From: a virus
Direction: 5' to 3' (one strand)
IMG/VR virus record: IMGVR_UViG_3300011115_000484
Coordinates: 1 to 28,797 of that record
Length of the DNA stretch: 28,797 bases
Part shown: positions 9,392-23,489 of the stretch, piece by piece
Layout of the letters: every line of letters starts with the position of its first letter
Position numbering within the stretch: the first letter of the stretch is position 1
The notes under the pieces: generated by a model
Told to the model about the DNA's origin: nothing
Seen by the model: the letters and a program-made list of their open reading frames with translations, nothing else
Database searches by the model: none
Made by a program: the position numbers and the translations under genes

Positions 9392-9510
9392 GGGGTTATT
9401 TTAGGTGACGGGGGGTGTTTTTGAAATGCGCGACGTGATTTGTGTAGATCAAACAGTATGGGAGGCGCGGGTCCCATCGCGGGCGTCTTGGGGGGTGGGG
9501 TCTGACCGCC

Positions 9511-9598
9511 CGTCCCTACCCGAAAATGGACATATACGGCCCGATGTGGGACAACAGGCTCATGCCAAGCAATAGTGCAGGGCAGTAAAGGAGATGCG
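9511..9598 (+). promoter_or_regulatory. Leader element L1
   Basis: This leader shares a pattern with three others at 10108, 10786 and 11644: CRTCCCT, then GAAA, then ACATA, then CCC-N5-GGG followed by ATAA or ACAA. Downstream it shares CATGCCAAGCAAT with the leader at 10786. It ends in AAGGAG before the ATG at 9599. No R element lies upstream of this copy. Confidence 0.6.
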
Positions 9599-9814
9599 AT
9601 GAACGCAATCATCTACGCATGGAAGTGGTTCACTTGGTATCAAGTGGTCGGCATGGATCACGCAGGGTATGCGCACCAATGGTGGGCGCGTGATGAGAAG
9701 GACGCCTTGAACTGGCTGGCGTCACATAAGAAGCGCTTCAGCATTGTGTACGGGAAGCGCGGGAAGCTGCTCGGCGGACGAGTCGGGTCAGCGGATATCA
9801 AGTACGCACGGTAG
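9599..9814 (+). CDS. Small basic aromatic-rich protein, unknown function
   Basis: The 71-residue product starts MNAIIYAWKWFTWYQVVGMD. The start is fixed by AAGGAG five bases upstream; an earlier in-frame ATG has no such site. It is rich in Trp, Tyr and Lys, basic at the C-terminus, and has no membrane segment long enough to be convincing. It is the first gene of the plus-strand small-gene region, behind leader L1 and followed by a UUCG hairpin. I do not recognise it. A small host-directed early protein is a reasonable guess from position only. Confidence 0.65.
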   Translation: MNAIIYAWKWFTWYQVVGMDHAGYAHQWWARDEKDALNWLASHKKRFSIVYGKRGKLLGGRVGSADIKYAR

Positions 9815-10022: not shown

Positions 10023-10045
10023 GGGGCTTCGGCCCCTTTCTATTT
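10023..10045 (+). terminator. UUCG terminator
   Basis: GGGGC and GCCCC close a TTCG loop, followed by TTTCTATTT. The hairpin tail is shared with the one at 10689 and runs straight into the R element. Confidence 0.65.
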
Positions 10046-10077
10046 GCCCCGCGATACCAGTTATTTTTCGGCGGGCG
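10033..10077 (+). promoter_or_regulatory. Repeat element R1 (45 bp identical to R2)
   Basis: This copy is identical over 45 bases to 10701-10745. It includes the end of the UUCG hairpin, TTTCTATTTGCCCCGC, the core GATACCAGTTAT at 10053, and a CGGCGGGCG end. It lies 55 bases upstream of leader L2. The position before each cassette gene suggests an upstream activating or promoter element. The protein that reads it is unknown. Confidence 0.75.
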
Positions 10078-10107
10078 TGTCGGGTGCGCGTGTATCGACT
10101 GCGCAGT

Positions 10108-10205
10108 CATCCCTGCTCGAAACTATACATATATGACCCACTATGGGATAAACGAACTGTCCTGCAGTGTTGTAGGACACAACCAACCACCTTGAAAGGG
10201 TGATC
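10108..10205 (+). promoter_or_regulatory. Leader element L2 with stem-loop and SD-masking hairpin
   Basis: After CATCCCT and CCC-N5-GGG the leader has a stem-loop at 10159-10178 (GTCCT...AGGAC, extendable to 8 pairs). It then has an 18-base block (10185-10202) in which CACC can pair with GGTG around the Shine-Dalgarno sequence GAAAGGG. Leader L4 shares this block and keeps the stem-loop with different bases, so an RNA structure is likely conserved. It could control translation of the gene at 10206. Confidence 0.65.
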
Positions 10206-10670
10206 ATGAAAGCAAACGCATTAGTCGCCGCGATGTTCACATCGTATGTTACAAACACGACACGTGAGATTGCACGTGCCAAGAATGACATAAAGGTAAT
10301 CAAGGCGAATAAGCGCCGCCTCACGCCATTGTTGAGTATGTTAGCAGTTGGCGAAGATGAGAGCGGAATTGTGCGTCTCTCTAACGGATATGACAATATC
10401 CCATGTATACAGATCAGCCTGTGGTCCGCTGAATCATTCAAGTGTGATGCTGTAGTGGCTAGGCTCTGGGCTCTTGAAGAGTTCGCGCCAATCGTATCGC
10501 AGACAGTACAAGAGTATCCCGCTAGTTTGAATCGGGACTTCGCTTTTGATTATGGGCACACTAGGGCAACGCTCGCAGTCTATGTGAAACACTCTAGCCC
10601 AACATGCCGCAAGGTAGTCATAGGGCAAAAGACAGAAATAGTAGACGAGTTCAAGATTATCTGCGACTGA
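10206..10670 (+). CDS. Cassette protein, 154 aa, unknown function
   Basis: I start at ATG 10206, five bases after GAAAGGG; a GTG two codons earlier is possible. The 154-residue product has a basic helical N-terminal region (TREIARAKNDIKVIKANKRR, about 19-38) followed by a mixed domain with WSAESFKCDAVVARLWALEE near 73-92 and a CRKVVIGQK strand near the end. No known domain is evident. It is a single-gene cassette with R1 and L2 upstream and a UUCG terminator downstream. It is not an obvious paralogue of the two genes that follow, although leader L2 is clearly related to leader L4. Confidence 0.7.
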   Translation: MKANALVAAMFTSYVTNTTREIARAKNDIKVIKANKRRLTPLLSMLAVGEDESGIVRLSNGYDNIPCIQISLWSAESFKCDAVVARLWALEEFAPIVSQTVQEYPASLNRDFAFDYGHTRATLAVYVKHSSPTCRKVVIGQKTEIVDEFKIICD

Positions 10671-10688
10671 TAATCTAGAGTAACCAAG

Positions 10689-10713
10689 GGGGACTTCGGT
10701 CCCCTTTCTATTT
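10689..10713 (+). terminator. UUCG terminator after cassette gene
   Basis: GGGGAC and GTCCCC close a TTCG loop, followed by TTTCTATTT. Two base pairs differ from the hairpin at 10023 in a way that keeps pairing. Confidence 0.7.
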
Positions 10714-10745
10714 GCCCCGCGATACCAGTTATTTTTCGGCGGGCG
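10701..10745 (+). promoter_or_regulatory. Repeat element R2
   Basis: This is the second copy of the 45-base block at 10033. Its GATACCAG core starts at 10721. A CTATATAA box lies exactly 52 bases downstream at 10773, the same distance as for R3, and leader L3 begins at 10786. No -35-like hexamer is present in the GC-rich spacer. Confidence 0.75.
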
Positions 10746-10772
10746 CGTCAGGCGCGTGCGTGGTCAACTGCG

Positions 10773-10780
10773 CTATATAA
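10773..10780 (+). promoter_or_regulatory. TATATAA box of the R2 cassette
   Basis: CTATATAA lies 52 bases from the start of the R core, as in the R3 cassette. It could be a -10 box with transcription beginning near the CATCCCT of the leader. The R1 cassette lacks this 10-base segment although its flanks align. Confidence 0.5.
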
Positions 10781-10785
10781 ACACT

Positions 10786-10874
10786 CATCCCTACGTGAAA
10801 CTGTACATAAGCGCCCCGCTATGGGATAACCAACACATGCCAAGCAATCCCGCTTGGCTACTTTTGGAGGCCAC
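10786..10874 (+). promoter_or_regulatory. Leader element L3 with perfect stem-loop
   Basis: The leader carries CATCCCTACGTGAAA, ACATA and CCC-N5-GGG like L1 and L2. It then has a perfect 7-bp stem GCCAAGC-AATCCC-GCTTGGC near 10839-10858, and TTGGAGG before the ATG at 10875. Confidence 0.65.
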
Positions 10875-11519
10875 ATGGCTACAAAAACTTTCCCCGCCGC
10901 CCCTGCAGTTGCAGGCCCTGAGTTCGCATCCCTGAAGGATATGGGCTACAAACAAGCGGACAACAGTATTAGTACTGTCCGCATGGCGCAGTATGCGTTG
11001 GAGCATATTGACAAATTCCCCGCTGAAGTATCGGACGAAGCAAAAGCCGAACTGTATGCGGGTTATCGGCTTCGTTTCAGTGAACTGCGCCCCGCTACAG
11101 ACTATGCGGTAATCAACGACCATATAATTCTCGCAACACCCGAGCATATGGCTAATGAGAACATCGAGAAAATCTGTATCGGTGTTCAGTATGCATTCAG
11201 TTATACCGCACAAGAATTCGGTAAACTCGCAAACACCCGCCCGGAACTTCATGCCCTAGTTCGAGATATTCGGGAAAGGACGAATAAGTTCTGCAGTAAT
11301 ACACTTGGCGCATTGAAAGCCGCAGCGACGAAAATCCTGAATGAAGGGAAGGATAGGGTTAGAACTGCAAATCGGAACTTCGATGAGTTTGTCGATGATT
11401 GGTTCAGCAACACTGCACCGACCCGCATGAAGGGGGCAAAGGCCCGAGGGGATATCAAAAGTGAAGTGAAGTTCAACCGGGCCAAAGCGGCTTTCATGGC
11501 TGAATGGAACAAGGGATGA
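10875..11519 (+). CDS. Cassette protein A, paralogue of the 11653 product
   Basis: The 214-residue product starts MATKTFPAAPAVAGP. GGAGG seven bases upstream fixes the start. From FPAEVSDEAKAELYAGYRLR to the C-terminal KAAFMAEWNKG it aligns along its length with the next gene product. Shared blocks include FPAE, AELY.GY, ATPEH.AN, EFGKL and CSN.LG.LK.AA. It is probably soluble and helical, with a basic C-terminal third. I do not recognise a domain. It has its own R2 element, leader and terminator, so the pair looks like duplicated self-contained transcription units. Function is unknown. Confidence 0.8.
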   Translation: MATKTFPAAPAVAGPEFASLKDMGYKQADNSISTVRMAQYALEHIDKFPAEVSDEAKAELYAGYRLRFSELRPATDYAVINDHIILATPEHMANENIEKICIGVQYAFSYTAQEFGKLANTRPELHALVRDIRERTNKFCSNTLGALKAAATKILNEGKDRVRTANRNFDEFVDDWFSNTAPTRMKGAKARGDIKSEVKFNRAKAAFMAEWNKG

Positions 11520-11540
11520 TCTAAGCCCTGAATGACCTAA

Positions 11541-11563
11541 ACCCGCTTCGGCGGGTTTTTTTT
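11541..11563 (+). terminator. Strong UUCG rho-independent terminator
   Basis: ACCCGC and GCGGGT close a TTCG loop and are followed by an unbroken run of Ts. It ends the cassette A transcript 22 bases after its stop codon. Confidence 0.9.
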
Positions 11564-11578
11564 CGCCTCGACTTTTCT

Positions 11579-11603
11579 GATACCAGTTATATATGGTCGG
11601 GCG
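11579..11603 (+). promoter_or_regulatory. Repeat element R3
   Basis: The core GATACCAGTTAT is shared with R1 and R2, but the centre reads ATATGGTCGGGCG, as in R4. This makes an ACCA...TGGT dyad that R1 and R2 lack. CTATATAA follows at 11631, 52 bases on, and leader L4 at 11644. Confidence 0.75.
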
Positions 11604-11630
11604 CGTCGAACGTGCGAGTGCGTGATCGGG

Positions 11631-11638
11631 CTATATAA
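11631..11638 (+). promoter_or_regulatory. TATATAA box of the R3 cassette
   Basis: CTATATAA lies at the same 52-base spacing from R as in the R2 cassette, 6 bases before the leader's CATCCCT. It is a candidate -10 box. No -35 hexamer is visible. Confidence 0.5.
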
Positions 11639-11643
11639 GCGTT

Positions 11644-11742
11644 CATCCCTACGTGAACCTTTACTTAAAGAGTTTCATAGACGATAAACGAACTGTCAAC
11701 GCGATTGTTGACGATTACCTAACCACCTTGAAAGGGTGCATC
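11644..11742 (+). promoter_or_regulatory. Leader element L4, overlapping the annotated 5' end of the next gene
   Basis: This leader shares GATAAACGAACTGTC (11683-11697) and an 18-base block ending GAAAGGGTG (11721-11738) with L2. Between them a stem-loop GTCAAC-GCGATT-GTTGAC sits where L2 has GTCCT...AGGAC, with changes on both sides that keep pairing. The reading frame of the downstream gene is open through the leader, so part of it might be translated. Confidence 0.65.
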
Positions 11743-12348
11743 ATCAATACTACCTACACTTCATTAGCCGAACTCGGCTACGCTCAGGCTGGCACAGCTG
11801 ATACATTGTTAGACCAAGCCCGCTACGCAATTGCGAACATCAAGGGCTTTCCGGCTGAAATCAGCGCAGAATGCCGCGCAGAGCTCTACAAGGGCTACAT
11901 TCGTCGTTTTAACGGTAACAAGCCCGCTAAGACCTACGCAATGATCGACGGTAATTACGTCGAAGCAACGCCTGAGCATCAAGCGAATGCAAGGGTTGAG
12001 AAAATCATCATCGGCGCTGATTTTGCTTTTAGCTATAGCCCGCAAGAGTTCGGCAAGCTAAAAGGCATCGAACCTAAAAAACACGCCATCATCAAAGATT
12101 GGCGCGACGATGTAACAGTGTATTGTTCGAATCGCCTAGGCGACTTAAAACGCGCAGCTAACGCGATCATAGGCAAAGAAAAGCCTAGGACAAGGGCTAC
12201 GCTGGATTTTGTGGAATCGCTGAATAAGATCATAGGCGAGCTTGAAAAATCTGTGAAAGTTAAACAGACTAAGGGCGATACGACAGCCGATGCTGCGAAG
12301 TTCAAGACTGCGATCAAGGCATTTTGGACGGCCTACAACAAGGCATAA
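11653..12348 (+). CDS. Cassette protein B, paralogue of A; start uncertain
   Basis: The frame is open from a GTG at 11653 (231 residues), but that start has no Shine-Dalgarno and lies inside leader L4. Homology with protein A begins near YTSLAELGY. A more likely start is just after GAAAGGG (11730-11736), where the frame offers ATC at 11740 or 11743, or TTG at 11728. That gives about 202-206 residues, similar to A's 214. Shared blocks with A are FPAE, AELYKGY, ATPEH.AN, FSY.PQEFGKL and CSN.LGDLK.AA. The C-terminal part is Lys-rich. Function is unknown. The cassette ends in a strong terminator. Confidence 0.75.
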   Translation: MNLYLKSFIDDKRTVNAIVDDYLTTLKGCIINTTYTSLAELGYAQAGTADTLLDQARYAIANIKGFPAEISAECRAELYKGYIRRFNGNKPAKTYAMIDGNYVEATPEHQANARVEKIIIGADFAFSYSPQEFGKLKGIEPKKHAIIKDWRDDVTVYCSNRLGDLKRAANAIIGKEKPRTRATLDFVESLNKIIGELEKSVKVKQTKGDTTADAAKFKTAIKAFWTAYNKA

Positions 12349-12361
12349 AGGCATAAAGACG

Positions 12362-12397
12362 AAACCCCCCGAGCTGAAAGGTTCGGGGGGTTTTTTT
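12362..12397 (+). terminator. Strong rho-independent terminator after cassette B
   Basis: AAACCCCCCGA pairs with TCGGGGGGTTT around a 10-base loop, followed by more Ts. Confidence 0.88.
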
Positions 12398-12410
12398 GCG
12401 TCCGCTATCT

Positions 12411-12435
12411 GATGCCAGTTATATATGGTCGGGCG
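12411..12435 (+). promoter_or_regulatory. Repeat element R4, without a following gene
   Basis: Only one base of the core differs from R3 (GATGCCAG instead of GATACCAG). No protein-coding cassette follows. About 56 bases downstream a CTTATTTAG sequence lies roughly where R2 and R3 have CTATATAA. It may drive a non-coding RNA or be a remnant of a lost cassette. Confidence 0.65.
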
Positions 12436-12466
12436 TGCCGAGCGGGTGAGCGCGTTTCACAAGGCG

Positions 12467-12526
12467 CTTATTTAGTGACTCACGTGTAGATGAAGTCTTA
12501 TTTAGTGGCTCATGGGCACATGACTT
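12467..12526 (+). repeat. Tandem 30-bp repeat (2 units)
   Basis: Units at 12467-12496 and 12497-12526 both begin CTTATTTAGTG, match at about 23 of 30 positions and end near ATGA. The second can form a TCATG-GGCA-CATGA hairpin related to the leader hairpins at 13304, 14487 and 16711. Confidence 0.7.
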
Positions 12527-12605
12527 AGTGTTTGCGTCATCTACCGTTTTCTTAAAGTATCTTTCAGCGTTTGGGGCTGTTTTTAAACCTTTTCGGCTCG
12601 TTTTT

Positions 12606-12656
12606 TTTTAACATCACTGGATGTGATGTTAACATTTTTTTTCGAGCTTGTCAAGC
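12606..12656 (+). repeat. 51-bp perfect direct repeat, copy 1, with hairpin and T-tract
   Basis: This is identical to 12719-12769. It contains TTAACATCAC-TGGAT-GTGATGTTAA (10-bp stem) followed by CATTTTTTTT, which resembles a rho-independent terminator with an AT-rich stem. It ends in GAGCTTGTCAAGC. Confidence 0.9.
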
Positions 12657-12688
12657 TATTTTGTAGCTTTTAAGTTGTACGGACAAAT

Positions 12689-12716
12689 AAAAAAACGGCC
12701 TCTTTTGGGCCGTTTT
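12689..12716 (+). terminator. Hairpin terminator between the two 51-bp repeats
   Basis: AAAACGGCC and GGCCGTTTT pair around TCTTTTG, with A/T tails on both sides, so it can act in both directions. Confidence 0.75.
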
Positions 12717-12718
12717 CG

Positions 12719-12769
12719 TTTTAACATCACTGGATGTGATGTTAACATTTTTTTTCGAGCTTGTCAAGC
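12719..12769 (+). repeat. 51-bp perfect direct repeat, copy 2
   Basis: This second identical copy lies 113 bases after the first. Perfect identity in non-coding DNA implies a recent duplication or strong selection. Together with the hairpin between them it makes three terminator-like structures in 165 bases. Confidence 0.9.
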
Positions 12770-13213: not shown

Positions 13214-13242
13214 TTGACATAAGAGACAAAATCCCCTATAAT
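13214..13242 (+). promoter_or_regulatory. Consensus sigma70 promoter
   Basis: TTGACA (13214-13219) and TATAAT (13237-13242) are both perfect and separated by the ideal 17 bases. Transcription would begin near 13249 and read into the gene at 13349 through a leader with a hairpin. A promoter this strong suggests immediate-early expression by the host polymerase. Confidence 0.92.
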
Positions 13243-13303: not shown

Positions 13304-13319
13304 CTCACGTACACGTGAG
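13304..13319 (+). promoter_or_regulatory. Leader hairpin CTCACG-TACA-CGTGAG
   Basis: This is a perfect 6-bp stem 30 bases before the start codon at 13349. The same stem recurs at 14487 and 16711, each time in an untranslated leader. Candidate roles are RNA stability, protein binding or translation control. Confidence 0.7.
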
Positions 13320-13348: not shown

Positions 13349-13690
13349 ATGAAAGCCATGCAACACAATTTCGCATTTGTTATGACCCCGCTGCAGCAGC
13401 GTGAAGTCGCACACTGGCACAAGTCGCTGCCAAGGGCGATGCGGAAAGCGCTTCAGCTGAAAGTTGTTAAGCCCACGCAGACTAAAGTCAGCTCAGACGT
13501 CGTGAGCTACATGGAGTACGGCTACAGGAACGATCCGTGCCACAACACGAATCTAGTCGATCCAGACATGGACATTTACAGCTACGCTGAGTTCGGGGAC
13601 ATTGACGACGACCTAAGCGGCCTGCAAATCACGGAGCCTGCAGGCGAAGTTGAACTGTTTGAGTTCTGCACCGGCTACAACGTCATTTAA
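13349..13690 (+). CDS. Early protein, 113 aa, unknown function
   Basis: This is the first gene behind the consensus promoter, with AAAGGAG eight bases before the ATG. The N-terminal half is basic with a helical segment (SLPRAMRKALQLKVVK, about 26-41). The C-terminal half is strongly acidic (DPDMDIYSYAEFGDIDDDL, about 71-89), a polarity seen in small phage proteins that bind host enzymes or mimic DNA. I do not recognise it. Its promoter suggests it is made at once after infection. Confidence 0.7.
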   Translation: MKAMQHNFAFVMTPLQQREVAHWHKSLPRAMRKALQLKVVKPTQTKVSSDVVSYMEYGYRNDPCHNTNLVDPDMDIYSYAEFGDIDDDLSGLQITEPAGEVELFEFCTGYNVI

Positions 13691-14002: not shown

Positions 14003-14142
14003 ACCCGAAACACCATTGGGCTAAGCCCATCCCCAAGCCGATCCCCACTAAGTCCACTAGGCTGGAGACGGTTATCTTCATCCTCACGTGTGCAGGAGCG
14101 CTTATTGTGGTTGCTGCAGATGTGTTCTTCTGGAGGACATGA
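13999..14142 (+). CDS. Small single-span membrane protein, 47 aa
   Basis: The frame MNPKHHWAKPIPKPIPTKST leads into a hydrophobic segment from about residue 23 to 45 (VIFILTCAGALIVVAADVFF). A basic, Pro-rich N-terminal tail would stay in the cytoplasm. The start overlaps the previous stop by four bases, which supports expression. Early position argues against a holin. A role at the host membrane is possible but not shown. Confidence 0.6.
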   Translation: MNPKHHWAKPIPKPIPTKSTRLETVIFILTCAGALIVVAADVFFWRT

Positions 14143-14143
14143 G

Positions 14144-14395
14144 ATGGGCGCAATGACCGGAGTTACCTTCAACAAGAAGATGAACAAGTGGACAGCACGT
14201 GCCAAGAACATTCACATCGGCACGTTCGATACGGAGGAGGAGGCGATGATTGCTAGAGAACATTTCCTGCAAGACCATGAGCGGGCGATCAAGCGTGGCA
14301 AGCCTCAACCGTATTTCTCTCTTACAGCATCCCCGTGCATCTTCACGATGGCGAACTACCCAACATCTAGGAGGATGCGCGAGTCACGTAGATGA
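14144..14395 (+). CDS. AP2-like DNA-binding protein
   Basis: The 83-residue protein begins just after the previous stop, with GGAGG upstream. Residues about 5-45 (TGVTFNKKMNKWTARAK, then IHIGTFDTEEEAMIAREHFL) match the AP2/ERF-type fold known from phage HNH homing endonucleases: G-V.....KW.A, G-F-T-EEA and a closing helix. There is no HNH part, so it is an AP2 domain with a short basic tail. It could be a sequence-specific regulator, or the remains of a homing endonuclease. It sits directly upstream of the operator-like promoter at 14414. Confidence 0.7.
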   Translation: MGAMTGVTFNKKMNKWTARAKNIHIGTFDTEEEAMIAREHFLQDHERAIKRGKPQPYFSLTASPCIFTMANYPTSRRMRESRR

Positions 14396-14404
14396 AAGAG
14401 TTAG

Positions 14405-14453
14405 GGTAAGTCCTTGACTTATACGTCAAGTTATGTTATACTATAGGTAAGTC
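14405..14453 (+). promoter_or_regulatory. Promoter with overlapping operator-like repeats
   Basis: TTGACT (14414-14419) and TATACT (14437-14442) are 17 bases apart. CTTGAC-TTATAC-GTCAAG forms a dyad over the -35. GGTAAGTC is repeated at 14405 and 14446, flanking the core. The 11-mer TAAGTCCTTGA at 14407 also occurs at 12840 and, inverted, at 13064. It drives the DUF3150/AAA+/VWA group and is probably regulated. Confidence 0.82.
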
Positions 14454-14486: not shown

Positions 14487-14502
14487 CTCACGGCAACGTG
14501 AG
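14487..14502 (+). promoter_or_regulatory. Leader hairpin CTCACG-GCAA-CGTGAG
   Basis: The same 6-bp stem as at 13304 carries a GCAA loop, a GNRA tetraloop, about 50 bases before the start at 14551. A second hairpin CGGTC-ACA-GACCG (14522-14534) lies just before the GGAGAG ribosome site. Confidence 0.7.
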
Positions 14503-14550: not shown

Positions 14551-15471
14551 ATGAACCAAAACCAATTGCAAAAGCCTGACCACCTCATCAGCCTCGCCAC
14601 ATCAGGCGTACTTGTGTGCGTGGATATCAAGGTCTGGTCGGCTACCAAGCAAGACCGGGTCATCAGCAATGAAGTAACTACCTCAAAGAACGCCGACAAG
14701 AACAGCGGGCGCTTCGTGCAGAACCTGCTTGCCGATCATCCCAAGCACAAAGCCCTGCAGAACTATCGGCAGACGGTGTATAACTGGCTTCAGCGCAAGA
14801 CGTATCAATGGAATAAAGCCGCTGACTTCCTGCCATCGGCAGAAGTTCCGTCGTTCAAAGCAGAATACAACGCGCACTTCACTTGCTTTGAAGCGTTGAA
14901 GCGTGACTTCCTCAATGACTATGACAGTATCGTCTCAAACATGGCGTTCAAGCAAGGCACTATGTTCAAGCGTGATGCGTACCCGCCCAAGGAGCAGCTG
15001 GAGCGTCGGTTCTCGATGGAGTTGTACGTCAACGATGTGCCGCTCAATGACTTCCGCTGTGCGATAGCTCAGGATATCGCTGATGATCTTCATGCTACGT
15101 ACTCACGTCAGACGGAGGAGATAGTTAGCAACGTCATGCGGGAACAACAATCACGGTTCATCGAAGTGATGGAGAGCATCAGCCATTGCTGCGGCATCGA
15201 GGAAAGCACCTCATCTGACGGTGAAGTCAAGACTAAGAAGCGCAAGGTCTATGACAGCACTATCAACAAGGCCAAGGCGATGTGCGAGACGTTCAAGCAG
15301 TTCAACCTGACAGGTAGTAAGGAGCTAGAGGATGCACGTGCAGCACTAGAGATTGCACTCAACGGTGTCGATGCAGATTTGATCCGTGACTCTGACGCTG
15401 TGCGTTCGCACGTGAAGGATGATGTAGACAACATCCTGTCCAAGTTCAGTTCGTTCGCATCGTTCAGTTAA
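14551..15471 (+). CDS. DUF3150-like protein
   Basis: The 306-residue protein has the features I associate with DUF3150. An N-terminal segment LVCVDIKVWSATKQD (about 21-35) leads into a long mixed helical region and a helical C-terminus. Members are often encoded beside a MoxR/CobS-type AAA+ ATPase and a VWA protein, exactly as here. Biochemical function is unknown. GGAGAG precedes the start, and it is the first gene behind the promoter at 14414. The family call rests on context as much as on sequence. Confidence 0.6.
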   Translation: MNQNQLQKPDHLISLATSGVLVCVDIKVWSATKQDRVISNEVTTSKNADKNSGRFVQNLLADHPKHKALQNYRQTVYNWLQRKTYQWNKAADFLPSAEVPSFKAEYNAHFTCFEALKRDFLNDYDSIVSNMAFKQGTMFKRDAYPPKEQLERRFSMELYVNDVPLNDFRCAIAQDIADDLHATYSRQTEEIVSNVMREQQSRFIEVMESISHCCGIEESTSSDGEVKTKKRKVYDSTINKAKAMCETFKQFNLTGSKELEDARAALEIALNGVDADLIRDSDAVRSHVKDDVDNILSKFSSFASFS

Positions 15472-16710: not shown

Positions 16711-16726
16711 CTCACGGTGACGTGAG
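16711..16726 (+). promoter_or_regulatory. Intercistronic hairpin CTCACG-GTGA-CGTGAG
   Basis: The same 6-bp stem as at 13304 and 14487 carries a GTGA (GNRA) loop, 9 bases after the ATPase stop and 22 before the next start. There is no T-run, so it is not a typical terminator. An RNA stabiliser or binding site fits better. Confidence 0.7.
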
Positions 16727-16940: not shown

Positions 16941-18205
16941 AAGACAAGCAGACAACGCGCATCAAACGCGCACACATGACCATGTTCAAGCATCCTGAGA
17001 CTGCGCTGTATTCCGGCGTGATGCTCATGGGTTCTACGGAAGTGGTTGACGACTGTCCTACTGCATACACCGATGGGGTGAACAAGAAGTATGGTCGCGC
17101 CTTCTTGGAGACTATCACTGACGAGGCCAAGGTACGTGGACTTGTGCTGCATGAGAACTTGCACGTGGCACTCAAGCAGATTCTCTTTGGCGTAGCTATG
17201 TTTGAGGAGAACGCGAAGATGGCTAACCTTGCGGCTGACTTCGTTGTGAACTCCATTATCTTCAACATCACCGGCACACTAAACAGTAGCTCACGTGAAC
17301 GTGTGGTGCTATTACCGGACGGCGCCGTACACGATGAAATGTTCAAGAATTGGTCTATGCGTGAGGTGTTTGTTTATCTGAAGAAGAACGCCAAGCCCAA
17401 GCCCAAGCAGCCGGGACAGCCTAGCGATGGGGGCGATGACGATGGCAAGGGAGACGGTGACAAGTGGGAGTCGGTTGAGGTCAATGGCAAGACGTATGAC
17501 TTGTCTAACTCAGACGAACACGGAACCGACACGGCCAAAGAGCTATCGCATGATGAGGCTAAGGAGATCAACAAGGAGATCGACCGGGCGCTGCGGGAAG
17601 GTGGGATGCTTGCGGGTCGCATGGGCGGGCAGATGCCACGTGCGATTACTGACTTGCTTACGCCCAAAGTAGATTGGAAGGAAGCATTGCGTGAGTTCGT
17701 GAGTGCGTCTGTCCGTGGCGCTGACGAGTACACATGGCGGCGCATGAACAAGCGGCATATGGCGAATGACATTTACTTGCCTAGCATGGACAACGAGACG
17801 ATGGGCGAGCTTGTCGTCGCTATAGATACTTCTGGATCAATTGGGGGGAAAGAGTTGTCCGAGTTCGCTTCGGAACTGGTGTCGATTTGCGATGTTGCCT
17901 CACCGGAGAAGGTTCGCATTATCTGGTGGGATCACAACGTGGCTGGCACTCAAGAGTTCGTTGACAACTACACCGGCATTGCTTCTATGCTCAAGCCACA
18001 AGGCGGCGGGGGAACTAGAGTGTCATGCGTCAGTGAGTACATAAACAAGGAACGCATCAACGCTGACTGTGTGATTGTGTTCACCGATGGCTACGTTGAG
18101 CATGACGTTCAGTGGAGTATCTCAAGCCCGACACTGTGGATGGTGACGACTTGTACATCGTTCAACCCGCCATCAGGCAAGAAGGTAATGATGAATCGTG
18201 ATTGA
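16937..18205 (+). CDS. VWA-like protein with an N-terminal metallopeptidase motif
   Basis: The 422-residue protein combines two parts. Near the N-terminus LVLHENLH contains HExxH (H72, E73, H76), a zinc-peptidase signature, as in the DUF2201 group. After an acidic, Gly/Asp/Lys-rich linker (about 150-185) comes a VWA-like domain with an intact MIDAS: D297, S299 and S301 in DTSGS, T360 in GGGGTR, and D384 in FTDG. It is the expected partner of the upstream AAA+ ATPase, comparable to CobS/CobT-type pairs. Whether the peptidase is active cannot be told from sequence. The target could be a host or phage protein complex. Confidence 0.82.
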   Translation: MKDKQTTRIKRAHMTMFKHPETALYSGVMLMGSTEVVDDCPTAYTDGVNKKYGRAFLETITDEAKVRGLVLHENLHVALKQILFGVAMFEENAKMANLAADFVVNSIIFNITGTLNSSSRERVVLLPDGAVHDEMFKNWSMREVFVYLKKNAKPKPKQPGQPSDGGDDDGKGDGDKWESVEVNGKTYDLSNSDEHGTDTAKELSHDEAKEINKEIDRALREGGMLAGRMGGQMPRAITDLLTPKVDWKEALREFVSASVRGADEYTWRRMNKRHMANDIYLPSMDNETMGELVVAIDTSGSIGGKELSEFASELVSICDVASPEKVRIIWWDHNVAGTQEFVDNYTGIASMLKPQGGGGTRVSCVSEYINKERINADCVIVFTDGYVEHDVQWSISSPTLWMVTTCTSFNPPSGKKVMMNRD

Positions 18206-20615: not shown

Positions 20616-20818
20616 ACGAACAGGATTTGGAGCAGTTGCGAGAGGTACACGCTGGTTTAGCTATGGTAGGTCTATTGATGAAAGGAGTATATGACGAAGA
20701 TATTCCTAAACGAGCATACCAACTTGCAGACTCCATGTTAGTAGCGAGGTCAGAATCCGCTGGCATCGTAGCAGTTAAACGCCATCCAAAAAAGGAGAAG
20801 GCATATGAGACAAACTAA
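20612..20818 (+). CDS. Small helical protein, 68 aa
   Basis: The product MNEQDLEQLREVHAGLAMVG is acidic then basic at the end (VKRHPKKEKAYETN) and overlaps both neighbours (ATGA at the start, 14 bases at the end). The end of its frame carries the AAGGAG used by the next gene. Function is unknown. Confidence 0.65.
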   Translation: MNEQDLEQLREVHAGLAMVGLLMKGVYDEDIPKRAYQLADSMLVARSESAGIVAVKRHPKKEKAYETN

Positions 20819-21257
20819 ACGCGCAAGGAAGGTAGCATCTATTGTGAAGCTACTGAAAGACGCACCTTTTACAAAGGCCAAGGACATAGCACTAAAGTAC
20901 AAGTGTTCAATGAACTACGCCTACACCTTGATATCTCAGGCCAAGAAACAACTCTCGTATGAGAATCTGTTTGAGCCTAAGCCACGAATTGAGATGTTTG
21001 AGAGTGCGACAGATAGCGACTCATCCTCACGTGAGGAAGTAAATACTCCTGACATGGTGAACCAACCACCGCACTATATCGTAGGCGGTATCGAGACTAT
21101 CGACTTCATTCAAGCGAAGCTAACGCCTGATGAGTTCCGGGGCTACTTGAAGGGCAACATCCTCAAGTACACAAGCCGTGCGGGGCATAAGGGTGACATT
21201 GATACAGACATTGGCAAGCTGGTCTGGTACGCCAACAAACTGCAATCCATCAAGTAA
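20805..21257 (+). CDS. HTH-DUF3310 fusion protein
   Basis: The 150-residue protein has two parts. Residues 20-50 (TKAKDIALKYKCSMNYAYTL) look like a helix-turn-helix. Residues about 84-148 are DUF3310, seen as PPHYIVGGIETIDFIQAKL, FRGYLKGNILKYTSRAG and KLVWYANKL. DUF3310 is widespread in phages, sometimes labelled nucleotide kinase without good proof, and its role is unclear. The linker is Ser-rich. AAGGAG precedes the start, and a strong terminator follows. The HTH part may let it bind nucleic acid. Confidence 0.8.
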   Translation: MRQTKRARKVASIVKLLKDAPFTKAKDIALKYKCSMNYAYTLISQAKKQLSYENLFEPKPRIEMFESATDSDSSSREEVNTPDMVNQPPHYIVGGIETIDFIQAKLTPDEFRGYLKGNILKYTSRAGHKGDIDTDIGKLVWYANKLQSIK

Positions 21258-21630: not shown

Positions 21631-23489
21631 AGATAATAACTGTTGACTTTGAGACGTACTACGCCAAGGGCTTGGGCTTCAAGACTCAGACTACTGAGGA
21701 GTACGTGCGCGACAGTCGCTTTGAGGTTATCGGCGTTGGTGTGAAGGTGGATGATGAACCTACTACATGGTTCTCCGGCACTAAGGACGAGATTCGTAAA
21801 TACCTCCTCACGTACACGTGGGGTACTAATGCTCTCCTCTGTCACAACACATTGTTCGACGGTTGCATCCTAAGCTGGCACTTCGGCATCACCCCTATGC
21901 TCATGCTAGATACGCTGTGCATGGCTAGGGCAATCCACGGAGTCGAGGCAGGGGGGTCACTGGCATCACTCGCCTTACGTTACGGGCTTGGCGAAAAGGG
22001 TAATGAAGTCATAGCTGCCGAGGGCAAGCGCAGACAAGACTTCAATGAGGAAGAACTTAAAGCATACGGCAGCTACTGTATCAATGACGTTGAGCTTACT
22101 TACAAGCTTTGGAAGGGTTTGTCTATCGCGTTTCCGACAGACGAACTGGCGCTCATTGATATGACGGTACGTATGTTCACTCACCCGGTGTTCATGGTGG
22201 ATGACGCACTGCTACAAGATCGGGCAGTGGAACTTGAAGAAGAAAAGATGGCGCTACTTGAGGGGCTGATGGATAAGATGGAATGCCCCGACGCTGAAAG
22301 CGTCCGCAAGAAGTTAGCTAGTAATAAGCAGTTTGCTCAGATTCTTGTAGAACACAACATCGAAGTGCCTATGAAGGAGAGCAAGACTACTGGCAAGCAG
22401 ACCTATGCGCTGGCTAAGAACGACGAAGGGTTTCTACTCTTGCTGGAGCATGAAGATACGTTTATCCAACAGCTATGCGCCGTGAGACTGGGCACTAAGT
22501 CTACGATTGAAGAGTCACGGATAGAGAGATTCATAAACGTTGGTAAGCGCAACAGGGGGTGCCTACCGATACCGCTCAAGTATTACGGCGCTCATACAGG
22601 TCGTTGGGCTGGCTCAGACAAGGTCAACTTCCAGAACCTTCCGTCAAGAGATAAAAAGAAGAAGACGTTGAAGAACGCCGTCATTCCGCCAGACGGTCAC
22701 ATTGTCATCAACTGTGACTCTTCTCAGATAGAAGCGCGGGTGCTGGCATGGCTGGCTGGTCAGGAAGATGTAGTCAAGCAGTTCGCTGATGGTGAGGATG
22801 TTTACTCAGTGTTTGCAAGCAAGATATACGACCGTCCTATCAGCAAGGCAGACCCGATAGAGCGCTTTGTAGGTAAGACCTGCATCCTCGGCCTTGGCTA
22901 CGGTACTGGCGCATTAAAGCTGCAGCACACGTTAAAGACTTCACCACCGGGGGCTATCGTGTCTGAGGATGTGGCTAAGTCATACGTTAAAACATACCGC
23001 GATGCTAACGACAAGATAATTGAGCTATGGCGTGACGGTGATAAGGTAATTAAAGACTTAGCTAACTGGAGTGGTAAGCCATACTACTATGGTGAGCATA
23101 GCTGCCTAAAGGTTAGCGAGGAAGGTATCCAACTGCCTAACGGTCTATATATTCGCTACCCTGAGCTTAAACTCAATACTAAAGAAGCTAAAAGCCGATA
23201 TGAGTACAAGTCGCGCAAAGGGCCTGTCTCTATTTGGGGCGGGACGCTAGTTGAAAACGTAGTTCAAGCCTTGGCTCGGATCGTAGTAGGCGAGCAGATG
23301 CTACAGATCAACCAACGCTACCGTGTAGTTCTTACCGTCCATGACGCGGCGGTGTGCATAGTTCCAGCAGAGGAGTTGGATGAGGCTCTAGCTTACATCG
23401 TCGGGTGTATGTCTGTACCACCCAGTTGGGCTAGGGGTTTACCAGTAGCTTGCGAAGCAAAATACGCAGAAAGCTACGGGGAGTGTTAA
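21627..23489 (+). CDS. Family A DNA polymerase with 3'-5' exonuclease
   Basis: The 620-residue protein has an N-terminal proofreading domain: Exo I DFE (D7, E9), Exo II NTLFD, and Exo III YCINDVE. A family A polymerase domain follows: GRW (325-327), motif A DSSQIEAR with D364, motif B R413-K417...Y425-G, and motif C HD (H572, D573). No 5'-3' exonuclease domain is present, which is usual for phage replicative PolA. The residue matching E. coli F762 is Leu421. It lies in the replication module with VRR-NUC, Cas4/RecB-like nuclease and SNF2-like helicase genes. Confidence 0.95.
   Translation: MKIITVDFETYYAKGLGFKTQTTEEYVRDSRFEVIGVGVKVDDEPTTWFSGTKDEIRKYLLTYTWGTNALLCHNTLFDGCILSWHFGITPMLMLDTLCMARAIHGVEAGGSLASLALRYGLGEKGNEVIAAEGKRRQDFNEEELKAYGSYCINDVELTYKLWKGLSIAFPTDELALIDMTVRMFTHPVFMVDDALLQDRAVELEEEKMALLEGLMDKMECPDAESVRKKLASNKQFAQILVEHNIEVPMKESKTTGKQTYALAKNDEGFLLLLEHEDTFIQQLCAVRLGTKSTIEESRIERFINVGKRNRGCLPIPLKYYGAHTGRWAGSDKVNFQNLPSRDKKKKTLKNAVIPPDGHIVINCDSSQIEARVLAWLAGQEDVVKQFADGEDVYSVFASKIYDRPISKADPIERFVGKTCILGLGYGTGALKLQHTLKTSPPGAIVSEDVAKSYVKTYRDANDKIIELWRDGDKVIKDLANWSGKPYYYGEHSCLKVSEEGIQLPNGLYIRYPELKLNTKEAKSRYEYKSRKGPVSIWGGTLVENVVQALARIVVGEQMLQINQRYRVVLTVHDAAVCIVPAEELDEALAYIVGCMSVPPSWARGLPVACEAKYAESYGEC

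Follow-up and report, generated by a model that had tools for sequence, protein, structure and literature searches.

A repeated composite element with a phage-specific palindrome at the early gene cassettes of uncultured aquatic phages

Between the late and the early genes of an uncultured virus (IMG/VR record IMGVR_UViG_3300011115_000484), represented by a fragment of 28,797 bases that is here called the window, lies an array of four copies of a conserved sequence, R. From its comparison with related phages, each R appears to head a composite element, E, which consists of the R core, a GC-rich stretch of alternating purines and pyrimidines, an AT box and a dyad, and which bounds a series of self-contained early cassettes. 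Within a cassette, E is followed by a predicted promoter of the host sigma-70 type, by an RNA hairpin at the 5' end of the predicted transcript and by a single small gene with its terminator. The dyad, a palindrome, differs between phages; with or without a flanking box on one or the other side, it recurs about once per kilobase (kb) along the early arm, also within genes. This phage-specific palindrome beside R is the strongest regulatory signal of the region; it was overlooked in an earlier annotation of the window made from its letters alone, here called the sequence-only reading. The interpretation that we favour, with a probability of about one half, is that a phage-encoded dimeric protein recognises the phage-specific dyad and represses or road-blocks early transcription.

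The R array in the window and in related phages

In the window, GATRCCAGTTATWTWTSGKCGGGCG is found at 10053, 10721, 11579 and 12411, always on the plus strand, with no further copy, and the R pattern had no match in 100 dinucleotide shuffles of the window. The four copies that the sequence-only reading had listed are thus real, and several of its details hold as well: R1 and R2 have 45 identical bases in common (10033-10077 and 10701-10745), CTATATAA lies exactly 52 nucleotides (nt) after the starts of R2 and R3 (at 10773 and 11631), and R1 lacks about 10 nt at this segment. According to the pattern match and the consensus of the relatives, the R cores extend over 10053..10079, 10721..10747, 11579..11605 and 12411..12437 on the plus strand and are the heads of E1, E2, E3 and the terminal, gene-less E4. 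From 9329, late genes (terminase, a portal-sized open reading frame (ORF), major head protein) are read leftward and, from 13349, early genes (ATPase, DUF2201, DNA polymerase A, PD-(D/E)XK nuclease, SNF2 helicase) rightward, with the array between the two blocks. The labels early and late follow from the gene content of the arms, not from expression. An R-like sequence, CCAGTTATACACCGTCTGCCG, is present on the minus strand at 14767-14793, inside the ORF at 14551; isolated matches of this kind occur in a few other contigs and probably are due to chance or to conserved coding.

A degenerate R pattern recovered 61 viral contig stretches, some of them by chance, and an extended pattern at least 117. 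After filtering and deduplication, 223 R instances in 108 loci remained, with the consensus TGA[TAG][AG]CCAGTTATTT[GT]T[CG]GTCG[CG]GCG[CT]G, which is partly fixed by the selection of the instances. Judged by these matches, R belongs to a large group of uncultured aquatic phages with more than 100 viral contigs, the longest of which measure 58–67 kb. In 13 long contigs R forms a single cluster of 2–4 copies, with lone weak extra matches elsewhere. A terminator-like hairpin is located at most 75 nt upstream of R in 66% of cases, vs 4% at control positions, and start codons mostly follow 150–180 nt after R, in line with the earlier view of R as a conserved cis element of specific position. The sequence-only reading had named the absence of R from relatives that keep the cassette genes as evidence against its proposal. 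The opposite was found: when a protein of the main cassette gene family (family 0, see below) served as query, without using R, all 31 loci obtained had R or a variant upstream, 23 by the pattern and 8 by reading the sequence. In these 8 loci the variant is GA[AT]ACCAGTTAT, with the second half shortened or changed. No close relative among sequenced phages was found by megablast, no match to the cassette protein by tblastn in phage records, no match to R or family 0 in GTDB species genomes, and no mention of the R sequence in a literature search.

Element E and its phage-specific dyad

A motif search in the relatives yielded a box of the CTATATAA type, then the dyad and then, at a fixed 29 nt on, TTTACT or TTGACA. 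By motif search and symmetry, the AT box CTATATAAAC and the dyad CTCATCCC/TACGTGAA of E2 are at 10773..10799, those of E3 (CTATATAAGC and TTCATCCC/TACGTGAA) at 11631..11657, both on the plus strand. E4 has its AT box and dyad CTCACGTG/TAGATGAA at 12468..12494 (plus strand, weight matrix and operator scan), and a second AT box and dyad, CTCATGGG/CACATGAC, follows R4 at 12498..12524 (plus strand, symmetry and operator scan). Such terminal copies are informative. Among the R copies that head no gene of a recognised family, most of which close the array, 78% are followed by box and dyad, with the AT box scored by a weight matrix, and no promoter enrichment was seen in these gene-less copies. Because box and dyad also follow an R without gene and promoter, we regard R, spacer, box and dyad as one element. 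The GC-rich spacer after R alternates between purine and pyrimidine in 70% of its steps, compared to 50% in shuffles, and the dyad shows a single sharp symmetry axis 18.5 nt after the start of the box.

The arms of the dyad differ between phages (TCCAC, CCCAC, TTCAG, TTCAC, GTCGG, TTCGG and others) and agree within a genome (0.77/0.72 vs 0.54/0.56 shuffled, in 48 non-redundant genomes). The variable bases of R behave likewise, position 14 being identical in 92% of within-genome pairs and in 49% of shuffled ones. Concerted variation of this kind would be expected if trans-acting factors read both R and the dyad; gene conversion between the copies could contribute to it.

R4 heads no gene and is followed by about 0.9 kb of AT-rich non-coding DNA, which is the rule in the relatives. 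The DNA after the terminal E is AT-rich (63% vs 52% AT) and rich in repeats, and this region is a candidate replication origin. At 12589-12769, after R4, a 68-nt repeat occurs twice, at 91% identity, and both copies contain a perfect palindrome of 10-base-pair (bp) arms as well as T runs; in relatives the region after the last R has iteron-like repeats, GTAGAACA or ATTCCAAT.

Dispersed putative operators along the early arm

The dyad is not restricted to the array. The 264 kb of early arm contain 244 matches to a phage's own dyad (0.92/kb), the 375 kb of late arm contain 7 (0.02/kb), and the dyads of other phages occur at 0.03/kb. Of these operators, 69% lie inside ORFs. The box is present left of the dyad in 41% and, mirrored, at the right in 20%, compared to 0.7% at control offsets. 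Since the boxes on the two sides are mirrored, the whole site is a palindrome, roughly TANNTANNNNTTCACGNNNNCGTGAANNNNTANNTA, and resembles an operator recognised as double-stranded DNA. A motif-blind scan for palindromes with 5-bp arms also singled out spacing 6 in the early arm, where recurring palindrome sets amount to 0.55/kb vs 0.06/kb in the late arm; when three distantly related cultured phages were scanned for palindromes de novo, no comparable set emerged. The specificity can be illustrated by TTCAGG-N4-CCTGAA: the two contigs that carry this sequence in their E have 22 and 17 matches to it, six others 3–6. Of 47 loci, about half have their first early operator 44–47 nt after the -10 of a strong promoter.

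In the window, the consensus sigma-70 promoter of the early operon (12/12, 13214..13242, plus strand, from the sequence) is followed 62 nt after its -10 by an exact operator, CTCACGTACACGTGAG, at 13304..13319. The promoter TTGACT-17-TATACT (14414..14442, plus strand, likewise from the sequence) has another exact one, CTCACGGCAACGTGAG, 45 nt after TATACT, at 14487..14502. The operator scan located a third exact copy, CTCACGGTGACGTGAG, between early genes at 16711..16726, and sites with one mismatch inside an early ORF (17290..17305) and inside the DNA polymerase ORF (21807..21822). All window operators with 0–1 mismatch are in the early arm. At up to three mismatches the window has 17 against 11.9, which is not clearly above chance; the evidence for operators therefore comes from the exact sites and from the relatives.

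Predicted cassette promoters, leader hairpins and terminators

The sequence-only reading saw no -35 box and took CTATATAA for a -10 box, with transcription expected to start about 65 nt after R2 and R3 and possibly in need of an activator or a phage polymerase. The relatives point elsewhere. In 70 cassettes, a -10 signature is present at spacer 17 or 18 from the downstream -35 in 88%; its A2/T6 bases are found at spacer 17 in 59%, at spacer 18 in 29% and at any other spacing in at most 17%. Here the -10 was tested at fixed offsets, the expectation-maximisation motif search having converged on the leader hairpin. By the same motif and fixed-offset test, three -35/-10 pairs with 17-bp spacers were located downstream of the CTATATAA box in the window, on the plus strand: TATACA-17-GATAAA at 10124..10152 (hexamers 10124/10147), TGTACA-17-GATAAC at 10802..10830 (10802/10825) and TTTACT-17-GATAAA at 11660..11688 (11660/11683). 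Because of their position downstream of the box, starts are predicted about 116 nt after R2 and R3. Relatives and window thus agree with the sigma-70 rule of hexamers 16–18 bp apart, and promoters of the host sigma-70 kind are at hand where a special polymerase or activator had been postulated. The summed sigma-70 score of the cassettes is only modestly above that of shuffled sequence, and their -35 and -10 often have 4/6 matches.

The predicted 5' end of the cassette transcripts is a stem-loop (mean z -2.5), with compensatory changes in a small set; in the window these leader hairpins, recognised by sequence and by the hairpin class in relatives, are at 10158..10179, 10839..10858 and 11695..11712, all on the plus strand. 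An Rfam search returned sub-threshold matches only. Terminators, also read from the plus strand, precede R1 (10023..10043), R2 (10686..10710) and R3 (11539..11566), and a terminator-like hairpin with a T run precedes R4 (12364..12398).

Cassette genes

Three R copies indeed precede a leader, one gene and a terminator, as had been described, but the genes are no orphans, for their families occur in many relatives. Family 0 (100 members) and family 1 (18 members) cover almost all genes after R, and a few R units hold other small genes. In the window, cassette 1 has a family 1 gene of 154 amino acids (10206..10670, plus strand, by family clustering) with a conserved DSPTCRKV...CD C-terminus. Cassettes 2 and 3 hold family 0: a gene of 214 amino acids at 10875..11519 (plus strand, by clustering and by paralogy with cassette 3) and its paralog at 11743..12348 (plus strand), whose homologous start codon reads ATC. 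The two ORFs are 41% identical (E-value 5e-50), which likewise contradicts the orphan status. At 11735-11750 the latter gene has a good ribosome-binding site, but ATC stands in place of the ATG of the relatives; this could be a rare start codon, the loss of the start or an error of sequencing.

In the tree of family 0, the two window copies fall into separate supported groups and the copies of the contigs L011 and L122 are closely joined. This points to duplications that were both old and repeated. Families 0 and 1 stand in a fixed order in the array and showed no relation by hhalign. The cassette proteins had no significant PHROG or Pfam match and no related PDB sequence; the structure prediction for family 0 reaches a predicted local distance difference test score (pLDDT) of 93, without a convincing PDB fold match. 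In L122 the first R cassette has a gene that resembles a homolog of the window ORF 13349-13690, which in the window is outside the R array. A cassette without R, at 9494-9814 of the window, has a promoter-like TGGACA-17-GACAAC and a 71-amino-acid gene, and shares its leader motif with cassettes 1 and 2. R as a tag of small genes therefore stands for the cassettes it heads, not as a universal mark, given also that two families dominate. The dedicated regulon that the sequence-only reading had suspected is supported and likely.

Candidate regulators and other early proteins

Ranking of early proteins by co-divergence with the dyad put an uncharacterised family of about 155 amino acids, family 0 and the ORF at 14551 at the top; as a pointer to the regulator this is a hint only. 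A small ORF at 14090-14395 has a weak match to the AP2 DNA-binding domain and resembles parts of HNH endonucleases. The DUF3310 protein at 20805-21257 carries additional N-terminal residues that resemble a helix-turn-helix and is a possible DNA-binding candidate.

A model for early control and its alternatives

In the model that we favour, a phage-encoded DNA-binding protein would bind the dyad as a dimer, with a specificity that varies from one phage to another. Most likely the protein would shut down or throttle early transcription by occluding the cassette promoters, through a dyad that abuts the -35 or, in some phages, overlaps the core promoter. Operators further downstream, characteristically about 45 nt past the -10 of a strong early promoter and also inside genes, would act as roadblocks to the elongating polymerase. 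The leader hairpins may stabilise the mRNAs, and R may be bound by a second, conserved factor. We favour repression and road-blocking because in several phages the dyad is placed on an extended -10 or directly before it, because operators follow near-consensus promoters and because operators are found inside genes. Several observations weigh against this model. The cassette dyads of E1–E3 are imperfect, unlike the exact CTCACG-N4-CGTGAG sites of the window, the weak -35 and -10 of the cassette promoters could require activation, the distance from R to the promoter varies, and concerted variation was assessed in only 48 genomes. As for a regulator gene, none of 12 contigs, of which some may be incomplete, matched the ParB_N domain or the tyrosine recombinase PF00589, and two matched HTH_3; parA and serine integrases were not searched for.

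The weak cassette promoters would suit an activator that binds beside poor -35 boxes and switches the cassettes on, and in most cassettes the dyad axis is about 10 bp upstream of the -35, as for class II activators. However, the dyad of L067, L077, L129, L146 and L153 lies across an extended consensus -10 or immediately before it, and operators also lie downstream of near-consensus promoters, inside genes and in the promoter-less terminal E, so that we consider activation unlikely. Equally unlikely appears an architectural or partition-type role, in which the early half is wrapped, bridged or segregated around an origin after the last E. Sites about every 650 bp, within and between genes, symmetric outer TA steps and the AT-rich, repeat-rich DNA after the terminal E would agree with it, but the lack of ParB_N in the 12 contigs and the fixed placement before cassette promoters and 44–47 nt after strong promoters point to transcription. 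Still less probable is that box and dyad work as an RNA element of early transcripts, either a nut-like antitermination signal or a processing hairpin. Early operators do occupy 5' leaders at a constant distance from the start, and the succession of a single-stranded box and a hairpin recalls boxA/boxB, where the hairpins are likewise variable between phages. Yet the box is mirrored on either side and so not directional on the sense strand, and the cassette copies are upstream of the promoter. Moreover, the non-Watson-Crick cells on the sense strand lean to A-C over G-U (31 vs 11 in gene-less copies), for which an RNA hairpin, tolerant of G-U, is ill suited.

Two further proposals concern R itself. 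That it might be a recombination or cassette-exchange site, moving genes through the array, is very improbable: R bounds every cassette, family 0 seems to have been duplicated independently (the sister copies, L011 and L122) and the L122 cassette holds the likely homolog of a window gene from outside the array, but gene content is conservative with its two families in fixed order, any tandem repeat yields duplications, and no match to a tyrosine recombinase was seen in the 12 contigs. We give hardly any credit to R as a promoter for a phage polymerase, as the sequence-only reading proposed. Its about 27 bp, which are non-palindromic, oriented and concerted within a genome in their variable bases, would fit such a promoter; against it stand the sigma-70-type promoter downstream, with the start expected about 116 nt after R, and the lack of PF00940 (RNA_pol) matches in 13 contigs, a weak argument as the control matched nowhere either.

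Comparison with known systems and implications

The system that appears to work most alike is that of the stoperators in the Cluster A mycobacteriophages L5 and Bxb1. These sites of 13–14 bp are asymmetric, follow the direction of transcription and are each bound by a monomer. The phages are temperate and have an immunity repressor, and their genomes contain 20–30 dispersed sites, a minority of which stand at promoters (PMC6550527, PMC9283540). Here, too, the sites are dispersed, mostly inside ORFs, and share a motif within a genome that differs between phage groups. In contrast, our dyads are mirror-symmetric palindromes confined to the early arm, and no match to the integrase domain PF00589 was seen in the 12 contigs, of which some may be incomplete.

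Other known systems share single features with the one described here. Lambda-type nut sites combine a box with a phage-specific hairpin in early leaders, as is found here; the mirrored boxes and the lack of a G-U signature suggest DNA recognition instead. The PeSL cassettes of T4-related phages, too, repeat an early promoter together with a stem-loop in the intergenic regions around small early genes. The resemblance to our promoter and stem-loop units is a lead only; to our knowledge, PeSL cassettes have neither a 27-bp R core nor a phage-specific operator. ParB/parS and KorB operators are palindromes dispersed over a replicon as well, but the spacing here is another, the specificity is diversified between phages and ParB_N is lacking from the 12 contigs.

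Dispersed-operator regulons are already known from temperate mycobacteriophages. The form proposed here is mirror-symmetric and restricted to the early arm, in phages without detected lysogeny genes. It also offers a simple sequence signature by which these phages can be recognised, and two conserved early protein families, one of them with a confident predicted fold that has no PDB match, are available for tests. It is conceivable, and we put this forward tentatively, that in this virulent-seeming lineage the early arm is a regulon whose operators are read by an uncharacterised class of regulators that diversified in the manner of immunity groups. Such a regulator would control the phage's own early transcription, and related co-infecting phages would perhaps be excluded or remain unseen, and R may dock a second, conserved factor that singles out the cassettes to be expressed first. 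With a specificity that is concerted within and different between genomes, such a regulon would make early shut-off and discrimination between phages testable in an abundant uncultured group.

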